Shown: positions 55,431 to 64,000 of the stretch, in pieces | How positions within the stretch are numbered: the first letter of the stretch is position 1 | Layout: every line of letters starts with the position of its first letter | From: Cavenderia fasciculata | Taxonomy: Eukaryota; Evosea; Eumycetozoa; Acytosteliales; Cavenderiaceae | Length of the DNA stretch: 64,000 nucleotides | Assembly: GCF_000203815.1 (NCBI RefSeq) | Contig: NW_004457639.1 | Coordinates: 372,001 to 436,000, forward strand | Reading direction: 5' to 3' | The notes under the pieces: model-generated | Told to the model about the DNA's origin: nothing | Seen by the model: only the letters and a program-made list of their open reading frames with translations | Databases searched by the model: none | Program-made: the position numbers and the translations under genes

Positions 55431-55944
55431 GATAATTTAATAATAATAATAATAATAGTCGTTTGTTTGATGAATGAATTGAAATGAAATGAAAATGACA
55501 TGACGGATATTGGGATGAAGGAATGATCTAAACATCATTGTGAGAATCTAATAGGATCTCGACCAGCAGCGCAAATCGAAAACTAGTTGATAAGCCATCG
55601 ACCGATTTGAGCTATAGTGCATTCGATAATGAAAAATCATTGAAAAATCATTTTTTTTTATTGTATTGTTTGTTTATTCTCTTTTGTTGTAATTTATAGT
55701 TACAATTTAAATAAATACAATATAAACACATTGAAGAAATAATGGTAAAACATACAGTGATTGAAAAGAGTTTCATTTCAAGGTTGGATTAGTTTGAAAT
55801 AATAATAATATCCTTGTGTTGGATTAAATTTTCTTGTGCGATAAACCAGGTGGTCAGTTCGGAGAATCATCTAATGAAGAAAAAAAGCATAAGAAACTTT
55901 GCAAGGCATCTTATGATTCTCTTTTTGGATTATACTTTTTTACA
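55431..55944. other. Intergenic region upstream of the M6PR/ATG27-like gene
   Basis: This 514-bp gap has a GC-richer patch at about 55550-55625 with no recognised gene. Just before the next start codon, 55834-55944 is open in the same frame and reads like coding sequence ('CDKPGGQFGESSNEEKKHKK'). It has no ATG, however, and is absent upstream of the second gene copy, so it is probably a remnant or chance. Confidence 0.35.
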
Positions 55945-57135
55945 ATGATGTATTATTACTACTTCATTCTAGCTTTCATCTCTAGTCATTTCATCTCTGG
56001 TGCCTTTGGTACTGCTCCAAACTGTGAGTATAATGGTATTGATTACTCTGGATTCAAGTATGTATCTCTCAACAACATGTATCTGTAGATAGATAGATAG
56101 AGTAAACCGTTATTAACGCTATTGGATTTAATGTTTCTCCTCAATTGTAGTTCTTCATACTCTTTCAAGTTTGTTATATCCAATTTAATTAAAGAATAAT
56201 ATTATAGTTACTAATAACGATCATCATTTATTTATTTTTTTGGTCCCACCTTTACCCACAATACTTTAAAATAATAATACTATTAGTGTTCAAGGTATTG
56301 TAACAATATATATAACAATGTTGATTATGCATGATATCTTTGCAATTTCCAAAACTTACACATTATTTTTGTTTTTGATGATTTAGGTACCAATTACATA
56401 TGGTCAGTTTGTCAACCAAATTTGCAATGCAACTCACTTCTTGGAGCCACGAATATTGTTTCATGTCAAAAGCCAACAACAGGAACACCACAAAACACTG
56501 GTTTGCTAAGCAGTGGAGTATGGGCAGACTCTCCTGGTGGTGGAGGAGCTGTCGTCAACTACAAGTCAGGCACAGCTCCATGCAAATCTTCTGGTAAAGT
56601 TAGACAAACCAATGTCTTTTTTACTTGTGCTCCTGGCCAACTTGATAAGGTTGTGGCAGCTGACGAATCGGCCACAAAATGTGTTTATGAAGTATTTATG
56701 TCTGGAAAATCTGCATGTGCCTCATCATCTTCGTCATCATCGTCAGGGTCAGATGTCACATGTACATTGAGTCGTTCAGGTAAACTCAAGGTCCAGTATC
56801 CAGGTGACACTCCAATCAATTGTACCTCTCAAGGTGTCAGTGAGTGTAATGCACCAGGCGGATTCCAATGTCTAGGTCTCTTGAGCTCCTCATCTACCAG
56901 ATGTTCAGCTCCAAACGAAATTGTTTGTCAAGCTTCATCTATTGTCTGTCGTGCTGGTGGAATGTCCTGCTCCATTGAGGGTGGTCAATTGAGTATCAGA
57001 CCCGATACAGTAGTAGTTCCAGGTGGTGACAATTCACAATCTGATTCCAAAACTAGTAATTCTTCCTCTACCTCGACATCATTCTCTCTTTTCACCATCC
57101 TCCTCTCATTATCCATTATTGCCATTTTAATTTAG
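55945..57135 (+). CDS. M6PR/ATG27-like secreted or GPI-anchored protein, copy 1
   Basis: Four exons: 55945-56057, 56151-56168 (18 nt), 56287-56294 (8 nt) and 56387-57135. The product is 295 aa. A signal peptide ('MMYYYYFILAFISSHFISGAFG') is followed by a cysteine-rich beta domain: 'NCEYNGIDYSGFK', 'GTNYIWSVCQPNLQCNS', 'SGVWADSPGGGGAVVNYKSG' and 'TNVFFTCAPGQ'. This is the pattern of mannose-6-phosphate-receptor/ATG27-like (MRH-type) domains. A second cysteine-rich module follows, then a Ser/Thr stalk and a hydrophobic C-terminus ('SLFTILLSLSIIAILI') with no cytoplasmic tail, which suggests a GPI signal. The ligand is unknown. The third intron (56295-56386) is absent from the almost identical copy at 63310. 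Splicing is required because an in-frame TAG ends the retained reading. Confidence 0.82.
56295..56386 (+). other. 92-bp intron present only in copy 1
   Basis: It begins GTATTG and ends GATTTAG. It interrupts the sequence 'gttcaag|gtaccaatt', which is continuous in copy 2 (63647-63662). AGGTA is found at both edges of the intron but only once in copy 2. Confidence 0.85.
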
Positions 57136-57313
57136 TCTATATGTAGATAAGGCAAGTCGTCAAAATAAATAATATATTCCAATTAATTAATTTATTAATT
57201 GTATATCGTTATCAAAGTAATATTGGACAACTATTTTTATTTAAAATAATATGATACATTGGATTTGGTCGGTCTATTTATTAAATAAATGAGTGATCTG
57301 TGTTTGTAAATTT

Positions 57314-60300
57314 CTACAAGATATTAAAGATAACAATTGTTGTTGAGAATATAATAAATGAAAAGTAGAATACAAAGGAGATGGAAGGAGTTGATGAAGA
57401 GGATGCAGATACTATGCATTCTTTGGTTGGTGGAGCAGTCTTGAGGGTGGCAGAGAATACAGGATCGATTTCAATAAAGTGATCAAAAGCTGGCACTTGG
57501 ATGCCAATATATTGAACGCCTGCCGATGATTTAGTAGATGAATCAATCGAGGCAACAGCTTGGATCGAGGTAACAATGGTATTGGTATTATCGAGTATGG
57601 CACGATTACTGAACGATGCCATCATTGTTCCCAATGGCGAATCGATACTATACGATTTGATTAATGTTGAAGATCCGGATGAACTGTCAAATTGGTAGGT
57701 CGTATCTTTAGTATCGCAATCATATTCGAGTTGACTTGGCGATGTGAATCGATAAATCACCACAAGTGATGAATTCGACGATTCAAAAGAATATTGGTTG
57801 ATAATAATATTATGTTTGATCGAATCACTGGATGGAATGACGATCTCTTCGCCTGCAAAAAATACTACACTACTACTATTTGATGATGAAACAACAAGTT
57901 CAATATTGTATTCTTCACTTGTAGTATTGTAAGTGATGACAGTTCCATTTTCATTCAATTTATCCCATTTGGCACCAACCAGTGAAATGGTCTTGACGAC
58001 TGTTCCATTGTCTCTGATTTCTTGGATATGAGATAACAGGAATTCAACGGTACTGTTGTATGCTACAAATGAACCACCAGATACTGTTGTGGTTGGGGTA
58101 TTGGTGATTGATGCCGTGAAAGGGATTGAACAATCTGATCCAGTGTATCCTTGGTCACATTTGCATTGGCCCGACGATACCAAACATTGTCCCTTTGATG
58201 AACAATCGTTGTGGCAGTCCAATATACGGTATTTGTAGATTCCGTACAGTGTGACTTCTAGATCTCCAGATCCCACATATACATTCAAGGCTTGACTACT
58301 ATTGCTCCCAATCAAACTATCATAGTAACAAGTAACAGTGTATCGATCGACTATTTCTTGATTGAAACAAGTGTCACCTCCAATTTCAATAGAAACGGGG
58401 TCAAAGAAATGGTCACCATGCAAGGTGACTTGGCCTGGAACACGGAAATAGGTGGAATCAATTGATGTGACAACTGGTTCTTTGGAAGTATATTCTACCG
58501 ACCCAATATCACAAACAACAGAATCTATTGATATTGTTGGAGCCTGTTGATATAAACTTGCAGCTCCAATAGTACATTGAATACTTGTTCCATCTTCATC
58601 ATTATTGGGCGTACGAGATATGTTTGTACATGGATAACCTCCAATCTTGATGACAATATCTGTAAATGTACCATTTGATCTGACGGTCCAAAGCCTATTA
58701 CCTGTAATCTCAACAACACCCCCGTATGGTGATGCCGATGAAATCAATGTAACCAATGATTTAATATTGAATAAGTAGTCGTTACTTGTTTGTCCATCCA
58801 CTACAATTCTAACATTTCCATTTTTGGACAAACTCGATAGTGTTGCAATGAGCATGGTTGGGTTGGTAATTGATACGATTTGGATATCATTGTTGATTGA
58901 TATCTTTGATAGATCCCCGCCAAAATTTGCGCCATAGATTGTTAATTGGTTACTACTTGCCAATTGAGTGATACCACTGATTGAAGGTGCAATATAAGAG
59001 AATGGAATGGATGATGGCGATGATTGAACACCATCAATATAAACGCTTACAATGTGATTGGTACCAGAGCCTTGAGGTGCAGTACAAACGATCGATGAAT
59101 AATCATCGGCATCTGCAACTGGGTTGGTACATGGTTGATTTTGGTCAATGACTATTGCTATATTGGTTGGTGCTCCATTGAATCTTGTTTCACTCAAAAA
59201 CGAGCCGACAATGGTCAATTGGTCACCACTGGTTTTAATGGGTTTCAAAACTGATGTAATGATTGGTGTCAAATGTAATTCGACTGGATTAGAGTATCTA
59301 CCATCACTGACTTGAACAGAGATTGGTCCGTTTTTGGTAGCTCCATCTGAAACAAATGTGAGCAGTGTGCTGTTGACATGTGTGAATTGTAGAGATACGT
59401 CTGTAAGAAAGACTGTCACTCCCGATTGCTGGGAACCAAAATTCTTTCCAACTATCGAAACTCTATTGGTATTGCTGACAATAAGAGAGGAGATGACAGG
59501 TGCACCATATGCAAAGTTGATATTATCGGCACGGTTAGATCCAACCGTCACTACAACATTATTGGCCATTCCAGTACCCGCCGGTGCATTACAAGTAATA
59601 TAGGACATGTCTTGATCATCTGCAATCTTTTGCACATTGGTACATGGATTATTACCAGGAAACATGACTGTAATGGTCAATGGTGCACCAGTAGCGTTTT
59701 GATTATTTAAATAAAGTCCACCAATTGTAATTTCCCCTCCAACAGAGTCGGCCGATGTAATAGATTTCAATATTGGGTACAGTTCAAAATCAAACTCATT
59801 TGACAGTTGACCAGACACGTTGACAAGGATCTTGTCATTCTTTGCAAAGTTTGGTAGAGATACTTGGATGATACCATCCATGAGGAAGGTAATCAGTCCA
59901 AATACAGCTGCCGGTTGATTCTTGAACAATAATTGAACATTGTCAATGTTGGTACCAAACGATGAACCAAAGATAGTTAGTCTTGTTGAATAGTGTGTTG
60001 ATGATTGTAGTTGAACTTGGTTCACATTGTATAGAGCCGGGGCTGGGTAATTGAATGTAATGCTCGATGTTTGACCATCGATTGACAATATGAGTGTCTG
60101 ACCTTTACCAGTGCCAGCTGGTAAAACATACTCGATTAACTCGGTACTTTGGACAACTATACCAGTGGATAAAGGTGTATTAGAGTTGAGTTGTATGGTG
60201 ATGGTTGATTGTGTACCGTTGACTCGCAGCTTATTAAAATGTTGACCAAGAATAGAGATGGTTCCACCTGCAGTAGTGACCTTGTCAAGAGAGGTAATAT

Positions 60301-62776
60301 TGGGTGAAATGACCACTTGCAGGGGGTTAGAGTCTTGACCAAATACAATTATTTTAGCAGGCCCTGATCTACTAGTGGGGGAGATTTTAAAGACAAGCGA
60401 GTCGGTTGCTAATCCAGTGATGGTACCTTGTTCCTGTCCAATTAAAACGACAATCTTGTCTGTACGTGTTCCAAAATTAGAACCTTGCATCGTTATGCTG
60501 TCATCTGATATATCCTGGGTAGGTGAGATCCAAGTTAGTGTTGGTGCTGGGAAAGAAACCAACTTGTTGGTTTGTTGGGTTCCAACCATGAGAACAATAC
60601 TCGCATCTGCACCTCCAAGACCTGATGGGTATTGGCAATTTAGTTGGCCAGCAATTAAAGAGACTGGATTGGTGCATGGGGTATCTGACAGCTTGACAGA
60701 TAGCGGTATAGTGTTACCAAGGTAGTCTTGGTTATTGAGGTATCTTCCAAAGATGACAAGACTACCACCATACAATGATATAGAGCCAATGGATGAGATG
60801 AGTGGGATGAGTTCAAGTGTGAGATTGGTGGTGGCCAATTGCCCACCTACAACAACGCTGACGTAACCATTCTTTTCGCCGGCACCCAAGGTGACGGTGA
60901 TGGCTGTTTGGGTGACTGCCAAGGTGGCTTGGGTATAGTCCTTGTTGTTGACAATGGGTGTGGTGGTGCTAGAGGACACACCAAAATTGGCACCATTCAT
61001 AATGATGCCAGTGCTCGTCTGGGTGACAGAGGTGATGGTGGGAGGGCTGTAGCTAAAGTTGCCTTGGTTGGATTGCTTACCGTCGACTGTGACAAAGACT
61101 GGAAGGTCCTTACCAACTCCCGCGGCGACATTGACGACAAGGTAGGCACCCGTATCATTTGCCCAGCTTGTTACAGCGGTCGGCACAGTGCTACCAAGAG
61201 CAATAGAGACGGGTGCAGTGGTACCATCTTGACGAAGACTATGGAGGAAACTACCGGTAATTGTGACCTGACCACCAGCCGTGTTGGCCGATGTGACAGA
61301 CGTGATAATAGGTCTCAAAGTAAATGAATACTCGTTGGATACAAGATCGGAAACAACGATCTTGACAGCTCCATTCTTTGATGCTGGGGATGGGACAATG
61401 GTCAAATTAGTCTGCTGGGCATTTTTAGAGACCAACGACAAATAGAGTACACCGCCAACCATGACACTTAGCGGTGTGCCAAAGTATTGACCTAGAATAA
61501 CCAATTGACCACTGTCTTGTTGAGTAACCGAATCGATGATGGGGGTATAGTAGGATGTGTAAAAAGGTTGACTTGAGAAAACAGTCACTTCAATAGTCGA
61601 TCCACCTCCCGCAGGAGCGACAGCCACGATCATACTTCCATTTCCAAAGAGGACTGGACATGAGATACCTTGGAACTTGACCAACTGTGGCAGTGTGGGA
61701 TGGCTCAACACTGTACCAGTGATGGTAACAGCACCGCCGACGGTGGGGATCTTGTCGGCGCCACTGATGAATGGAGTGAATCCAATGAGACGTGGTGCAT
61801 TGGACATCACTTGTCCATTCACCTTGACATAGTAGTAGTCTGTCCAGGCCCAATCGGGTATAGTGGCATAAAAAGTAAGGCTGTCTTGACCAATCGACGT
61901 TGCGGGGAACGTAATGTTTGGATAGTTGACAGAATGCATCGATATGAGTTGTGGTACATTACCAAAATTTGTACCCATTACTGCCATCACCTATGAAAAA
62001 AAAAAGTAGTTTAGTTGGTAAAATATATTATAATATAATAAGTCATCACTCTACTCATTCTCTCTCTTACATTAATAGAGGTTGCTACATTTGTCATGGT
62101 CGGTGCAGCATAGGTCATGTTAAAAGATGTAACTACACCGTCAATTGAAAGTGTTGATGCGATCAAACCACTACCCTTTCCCACCCCAGTCATATTAAAA
62201 TAGGTGCCATCGGTACTATAGGTTAAAACACTGTTACTAATCACATTACCACCAATAGTAAGTATAAAGTTGGTAAGTTGTCCATTTGCTCTAAATTTAT
62301 TTAAACATGACTAAAAATAAATAAAATAATGAATGAATGAATGAATGAATATTTAATATCTGTTAATCATTTATAAATTTTATTTTATTACTTACACCTT
62401 GAAAACTAGCAATACCACCAAGCGTGTTTGGACGAATACCCATTGAAATGACAGGCTTTAGAGTGAATGGATAATAGTTGGATTCCCATCCAGCGACAGC
62501 TACCATCACTTGACCATTCAAAATGGGGACAGCCGGTGTAATGATTACCAATCCATTAGAGACAAGGCTAGTAGGAGGTAATTCAAGCAATGATTGGGTG
62601 TTAAAGGTGATTGTCACCTCGTTGATGGCATTTCCAAAGTCTGCACCATAAATTGAAATGGTTTGACCTGTATTTTCGACACTGTTAATGGTCGGTAATG
62701 CATCACATGATTGAAAAATGAATATCACTAATAAAGAATAGAATATCAACAAGTACCGATTACTTGTTGATTTCAT
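57314..62776 (-). CDS. Giant IPT/TIG-repeat + EGF surface protein (Tgr/ComC-like)
   Basis: Three exons: 62776-62396, 62310-62071 and 61990-57314, all phase 0 (GTAAGT and GTAAGA donors). The product is 1765 aa. A signal peptide ('YLLIFYSLLVIFIFQSCDA') is followed by a long array of IPT/TIG immunoglobulin-like repeats. Each has phrases such as 'PxIxSVxxxxxxGGxxTIxGxxL', 'VLxGxxFGxxxxxVTVxxG' and 'APAGxGxxNxVxVxVxGxxS'. Near residue 1466-1495 there is one EGF module ('CHNDCSSKGQCLVSSGQCKC'). After it comes the Ser/Thr/Asn-rich C-terminal domain seen in dictyostelid EGF/TIG proteins, then a hydrophobic end ('FVFYFSFIIFSTTIVIFNIL'). That end has no cytoplasmic tail, so a GPI or short membrane anchor is likely. 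The relatives TgrB1/TgrC1 act in kin recognition and cell adhesion. A similar adhesion role here is inference. Confidence 0.88.
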
Positions 62777-63309: not shown

Positions 63310-64000
63310 ATGATGTATTATTATTACTTCGTTCTAGCTTTCATCTCTAGTCATTTCATCTCTGGTGCCTTTGGTACTGCTCCAAACTGTGAGTATAATG
63401 GTATTGATTACTCTGGATTCAAGTATGTATCCTCAGCAACATGTATCTGTAGATAGATAGAGTATCCCGTTATTAACGCTATTTTTAATCTTTCTCCTCA
63501 ATTGTAGTTCTTCATACACTTACAAGTTTGTTATATCCAATATTTAATTAAAGAATAATATAACTTGTATAGTGAGAACTACTAATAATAATAATGATAA
63601 TCATTTATTTTTTTTGATCCCTACCTTTTAAAATAATATCATTAGTGTTCAAGGTACCAATTACATATGGTCAGTTTGTCAACCAAATTTGCAATGCAAC
63701 TCACTTCTTGGAGCCACGAATATTGTTTCATGTCAAAAGCCAACAACAGGAACACCACAAAACACTGGTTTGCTAAGCAGTGGAGTATGGGCAGACTCTC
63801 CTGGTGGTGGAGGAGCTGTCGTCAACTACAAGTCAGGCACAGCTCCATGCAAATCTTCTGGTAAAGTTAGACAAACCAATGTCTTTTTTACTTGTGCTCC
63901 TGGCCAACCTGATAAGGTTGTGGCAGCTGACGAATCGGCCACAAAATGTGTTTATGAAGTATTTATGTCTGGACAATCTGCATGTGCCTCATCCTCGTCG
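63310..64000 (+). CDS. M6PR/ATG27-like protein, copy 2 (3' truncated by window)
   Basis: Exons: 63310-63422, 63508-63525 (18 nt) and 63646 to beyond the window end. The protein is near-identical to copy 1. The signal peptide is the same length. The second exon differs slightly (TCATACACTTAC versus TCATACTCTTTC). The last exon has only about two substitutions in its first ~330 nt (Leu to Pro in 'GQLDKVV', Lys to Gln in 'SGKSAC'). Introns 1 and 2 are homologous but more diverged, with small indels. The third intron of copy 1 is missing: 'tgttcaaggtaccaatt' is uninterrupted. The pair brackets the minus-strand IPT/TIG gene. Confidence 0.85.

Follow-up and report, generated by a model that had tools for sequence, protein, structure and literature searches.

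The two genes studied here, referred to as copy 1 and copy 2, differ by the presence or absence of one whole intron, intron 3, and the likeliest cause of the difference is that copy 2 lost the intron exactly, an event of a known kind that is unusual mainly for the nearby intron-bearing sister. Our preferred reading, which we regard as probable while leaving considerable room for doubt, is that intron 3 was already established in the gene family and was lost exactly from copy 2 after the two copies had split, the likeliest route being recombination with a spliced cDNA. The initial annotation had recognized the presence and absence of the intron and described it well, but its headline reading, an intron gain, is not the one that we arrive at.

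Both genes lie in the window, that is, the whole stretch of 64,000 bp that was analysed (C18:372001-436000 of a 31.0-Mb genome in 21 contigs). Searches with the N-terminal domain led to six comparable genes, namely copy 1, copy 2 and the paralogues C8 (C8:366.4k), C4 (C4:1410.8k), C3a (C3:570.2k) and C3b (C3:571.2k), together with weak matches on contigs C5 and C17. The gene models of all six paralogues were made by hand, and the features of copies 1 and 2 are collected in Table 1. In the models copy 1 has four exons (113, 18, 8 and 749 nt, with the stop codon) and encodes 295 aa, and copy 2 has three (113, 18 and 628 nt) and encodes 252 aa. Introns 1 and 2 had been taken to be shared by both copies, and they do agree in position and phase in the gene models. 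The description of the copies as near-identical holds from about 55915 to about 56725, a block that begins 30 bp ahead of the start codon and extends through exons 1-3 and the first half of exon 4, but fails beyond it: in the alignment the likeness is gone upstream of ~55915 and downstream of ~56740, and the 3′ halves are very different. Between copies 1 and 2 lies an open frame of 1558 codons on the minus strand (window 57314-61990), and 40 bp of the sequence preceding copy 1 (55734-55773) recur with 98% identity at C18:331039-331078, ~97 kb away.

Table 1. Features of copies 1 and 2 in the window (positions are those of the window)
Feature	Position	Strand	Basis
Copy 1, block near-identical to copy 2 (63280 onward)	55915..56725	+	alignment
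Copy 1 exon 1, start resembling a signal peptide by eye	55945..56057	+	gene model
Copy 1 intron 1, phase 2	56058..56150	+	gene model
Copy 1 exon 2, 18 nt	56151..56168	+	gene model
Copy 1 intron 2, phase 2	56169..56286	+	gene model
Copy 1 exon 3, 8-nt microexon	56287..56294	+	gene model
Copy 1 intron 3, 92 bp, phase 1	56295..56386	+	alignment and gene model
Copy 1 exon 4; 56387 to ~56725 matches copy 2, remainder matches 3′ end of C2:1047400	56387..57135	+	alignment and gene model
Copy 1 3′ half, aligned to C2:1047400, 94% (404/429 aligned bases)	56722..57183	+	alignment
Copy 2 exon 1	63310..63422	+	gene model
Copy 2 intron 1	63423..63507	+	gene model
Copy 2 exon 2	63508..63525	+	gene model
Copy 2 intron 2	63526..63645	+	gene model
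Copy 2 fused exon 3/4, runs past window end	63646..64000	+	alignment and gene model

Copy 1 is a chimera, in which a copy 2-like 5′ part has been joined to the C-terminal module of another gene family: its 3′ half shows 94% identity to the final part of another gene, located on contig C2. The match, at C2:1047400-1047777, starts in a serine-codon repeat and runs beyond the stop codon. The matching part comprises the module, which has a hydrophobic tail, GPI-anchor-like by eye, and some 3′ flank, and its junction with the rest of copy 1 lies in the serine-codon repeat. A search with this module returned 13 matches in the genome. Apart from copy 1, ten of them have E < 1e-15, and those in C4 and copy 2 are weak.

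In copy 1, intron 3 (56295-56386) lies between the 8-nt exon and exon 4, starts with GTATTG and ends with TTTAG, and has GT-AG ends. In copy 2, exon 3 (TGTTCAAG, 63646-63653) joins GTACC (63654) directly, which puts the empty intron site between 63653 and 63654; copy 2 is continuous there in the alignment, its flanking exons are identical to those of copy 1, and the intron is missing exactly. Copy 1 has an open frame, of 295 aa, only once the 92 bp are taken out, and if they were kept in the message the frame would shift and translation would end at the insert's own TAG, which is why the 92 bp are predicted to behave as an intron. With an A+T content of 0.77 and a length of 92 bp, intron 3 of copy 1 falls inside the ranges of all 14 modelled introns, itself included (0.66-0.84 and 69-120 bp). 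The alignment thus confirms the initial finding of a 92-bp GT-AG intron in copy 1 at a point where copy 2 is continuous, with splicing as predicted from the frame.

The wider family gives the intron a history. According to the hand-made gene models, intron 1 is present in all six paralogues and intron 2 in five, being absent in C4, while intron 3 is found in three, copy 1 (92 bp), C3a (85 bp) and C3b (96 bp), and is absent from copy 2, C8 and C4. Its position is identical in the three genes that carry it: after an 8-nt exon, in phase 1 and 14 bases before a conserved TGG. The 8-nt microexon between introns 2 and 3 has the same length in three divergent paralogues, beside an exon 2 of 18 or 21 nt. 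If absence is taken as loss, the absent introns of this small sample are nested with the 3′-most missing first (6/6, 5/6 and 3/6 for introns 1, 2 and 3), and C4 is without two adjacent introns, 2 and 3. Such a 3′-first ladder would arise by chance about once in 27 times, by a hand estimate in which each gene's missing set is random and the genes, which may not be independent, are treated as if they were. C3a is probably a pseudogene, because upstream of the domain there is an in-frame stop and no start codon, and because the frame of exon 4 is broken; C3b, in tandem with it, gives an open frame. The C8 paralogue (C8:365150-368494) is ATG27 / mannose-6-phosphate-receptor-like, with both Pfam ATG27 (97.5 bits) and Man-6-P_recep (34.5 bits) over the cut-off, and in the Pfam search no family reached the cut-off for copies 1 and 2. 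In a distant relative on C17 (C17:758392-761691), two domains have an intron that ends 12 bases before the conserved TGG, 2 bases from the position of intron 3, and this could be a slid or a separate intron.

The kinship of copies 1 and 2 is evident from their introns. When all 25 same-position pairs of introns 1 and 2 among the paralogues were compared, with 300 shuffles each, both copy 1/copy 2 pairs aligned strongly (0/300 shuffles as good for either pair). The next-best pairs were intron 2 of C3a and C3b (9/300) and intron 2 of C3b and C8 (21/300), and for the remaining 21 of the 25 pairs 77 to 291 of 300 shuffles were as good. As only their introns 1 and 2 align strongly in this set, copies 1 and 2 are sisters. 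The intron 3 sequences of copy 1, C3a and C3b showed no mutual alignment, their scores being reached by 113 to 143 of 300 shuffles, and since the three share nothing detectable their homology has to be argued from position and phase alone. Unlike sequences are, however, to be expected at such a distance, since the paralogues' introns 1 and 2 are mostly unlike too. Protein trees were tried as a means of polarizing the change in intron 3 and were dropped, since the order of the paralogues was not resolved either with nine rows (6 inner branches, 0 starred, 4 open) or with the six paralogues (3 inner branches, 0 starred, 3 open). The trees rejected neither a clade of copy 1 with C3a and C3b (p-AU 0.138 and 0.147) nor a grouping of copy 2 with C8 that leaves out copy 1 (p-AU 0.167 and 0.169), and the minimum number of intron 3 changes on them is 2, which is compatible with gain and loss alike.

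Because C3a and C3b share the nucleotide and the phase of intron 3 with copy 1, the intron would predate the split between copies 1 and 2, barring two gains at one and the same nucleotide. If intron 3 had a single origin, then, as the two copies are sisters, it follows that their ancestor had the intron and that copy 2 lost it, and under one origin this holds wherever C8 and C4 belong. An intron 3 ancestral to all six paralogues would need further losses in C8 and C4. Exact loss from copy 2, through a spliced intermediate, had been offered initially as the alternative to gain, and with intron 3 placed identically in C3a and C3b such a loss is the better supported of the two. The exactness of the change and the AG|GT that remains at the site in copy 2 and C8 speak for a loss as well. 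Published counts for two Dictyostelium species also favour loss, the precise losses reported there (441 and 202) outnumbering the putative gains (40 and 58; PMC4683709).

Under the preferred reading, intron 3 would have been present in the common ancestor of copies 1 and 2. A transcript, either that of copy 2 itself or that of copy 1, would then have been spliced and reverse-transcribed, and the cDNA would have recombined with the copy 2 locus, a process expected to remove the intron exactly and to act preferentially from the 3′ side. A cDNA model is argued for intron loss in Dictyostelium by Ma et al. 2015 (PMC4683709). In the present family this route is favoured by the 3′-first ladder, by the adjacent double absence in C4 and by a step in divergence at the intron 3 site, each of them weak alone. 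The step consists of 13 substitutions between copies 1 and 2 in 344 positions to the left of intron 3 against 2 in 345 to the right (Fisher p = 0.004), where the left-hand count depends on the alignment of gappy introns, and coding sequence to the right is compared with mostly non-coding sequence to the left. Introns 1 and 2 contain 12 indel events and exon 3/4 up to 56723 none. At synonymous sites the comparison is 0/82 against 9/213 at non-coding sites (p = 0.067), and 82 sites without a substitution would have a probability of 0.04 at the left-hand rate; at the fourfold sites of exon 4 the comparison is 0/64 against 7/183 in introns (p = 0.20). The step would fit a tract left when spliced cDNA of copy 1 converted copy 2, if weakly so at synonymous sites, and such a tract is also expected from an ordinary conversion of exon 4 that ended at the intron.

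The main rival to the cDNA route concerns the sequence AGGTA, which, as had been noted initially, flanks intron 3 of copy 1 on both sides and has a single occurrence in copy 2. Its interpretation as the footprint of an insertion has to be abandoned: intron 3 of C3a has the identical 5-nt repeat, so that the repeat is not diagnostic of insertion, whereas intron 3 of C3b has a 2-nt repeat and the other 11 modelled introns have none. Part of AGGTA is splice signal (the GT and AG of the intron) and the rest exon sequence around a glycine codon, and the repeat belongs to the site instead of recording a recent insertion. It supports a deletion at least as much as a gain, because an exact deletion between the repeats is possible. 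Copy 2 may thus have lost intron 3 when the genomic DNA from one AGGTA to the next was deleted, through microhomology end joining or slippage and with no cDNA involved; the perfect 5-nt repeat flanks the copy 1 intron, and a deletion between its two copies yields the exact copy 2 sequence. Yet the Dictyostelium study reports that direct repeats are no commoner at lost introns than at conserved ones and counts 2 imprecise losses against 643 precise ones (PMC4683709), and a deletion leaves the 3′-first pattern and the divergence step, both themselves weak, without explanation. On balance, a deletion between repeats deserves serious attention but seems rather unlikely.

It could also be that the loss from copy 2 is older and that exon 4 was homogenized later by ordinary DNA conversion stopping at the intron, in which case the event would not be young. 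This would account for the substitution step and for the restriction of the indels to introns 1 and 2, and C8 also is without intron 3. Nevertheless, introns 1 and 2 still place copies 1 and 2 close to each other and at fourfold sites the step loses its significance, and we consider an older loss followed by conversion to be improbable.

The young gain at a proto-splice site that the initial annotation had proposed would have to be an insertion into copy 1 independent of the introns in its relatives. Outside the pair, the site is occupied, with nucleotide and phase unchanged, in C3a and C3b and empty in C8 and C4, and a gain therefore requires a second insertion at that nucleotide. In its favour are the AG|GT that copy 2 and C8 keep at the intron 3 site, the absence of the intron from copy 2, C8 and C4, the lack of detectable sequence in common among the three intron 3s, and the parallel gains reported in Daphnia, where 43 of 90 new introns were attributed to parallel gains, scored by absent sequence similarity at one site (PMC4202315). 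Besides the repeat in C3a, the failure to detect in the genome either a source for the 92 bp or another copy of them argues against a gain, as do the figures given for grasses, in which recurrent gains number 0 in 883 cases, though 118 single gains are reported (PMC4256211). That intron 3 arose separately in copy 1 is, in our view, very improbable, and the same small credence goes to its corollary of two independent gains, in copy 1 and in the C3a/C3b lineage; if they did occur, the site would be a real insertion hotspot and the copy 1 intron very young.

Several sources for an inserted intron were considered and rejected. Other copies of the 92 bp, as expected of an introner-like element, had been suggested as a check, but a genome search with E up to 10 returned one match, the intron itself, which argues against insertion of a repeated element, although very common words were skipped in the search and the result is not proof. 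A tandem duplication of the flanks is not indicated either, as the likeness of the 92 bp to the 600 bp on either side is no better than that of shuffled sequences on both strands (73 and 49 of 100 shuffles as good on the plus strand, 78 and 42 on the minus strand); against the copy 2 region, 12 and 45 of 100 shuffles were as good. The longest repeat inside intron 3, of 7 nt, was reached by 308 of 500 shuffles and is no footprint of a DNA break. Transfer of intron 3 from C3a or C3b was dismissed, since it has no likeness to theirs and is flanked on each side by exons that resemble copy 2.

An exact loss from copy 2 by way of a spliced cDNA would resemble the precise, 3′-biased intron loss reported in Dictyostelium (Ma et al. 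2015, PMC4683709), in that the removal is exact, the exons are unchanged and the 3′-most intron is missing, and C4, without two adjacent introns, is again like the losses of that study. The comparison there is between orthologues of different species, whereas here it is between paralogues ~7 kb apart in one genome, and a recent exact loss with an intron-bearing sister at this distance would allow the mechanism to be read from the flanking divergence. As in the grasses (2014, PMC4256211), the same intron position is empty in some members, here copy 2, C8 and C4, and filled in others, although the paralogues of our single species are too few for a test of recurrence. The recent gains of Daphnia (PMC4202315) are similar in combining presence and absence with a short edge repeat, and introns at the same site without sequence similarity were scored there as parallel gains. 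In our case, however, the paralogues are divergent and their introns 1 and 2 fail to align as well, and the edge repeat follows from splice signals and exon sequence. Divergent paralogues should thus be examined first wherever presence and absence with a short edge repeat suggests a gain.
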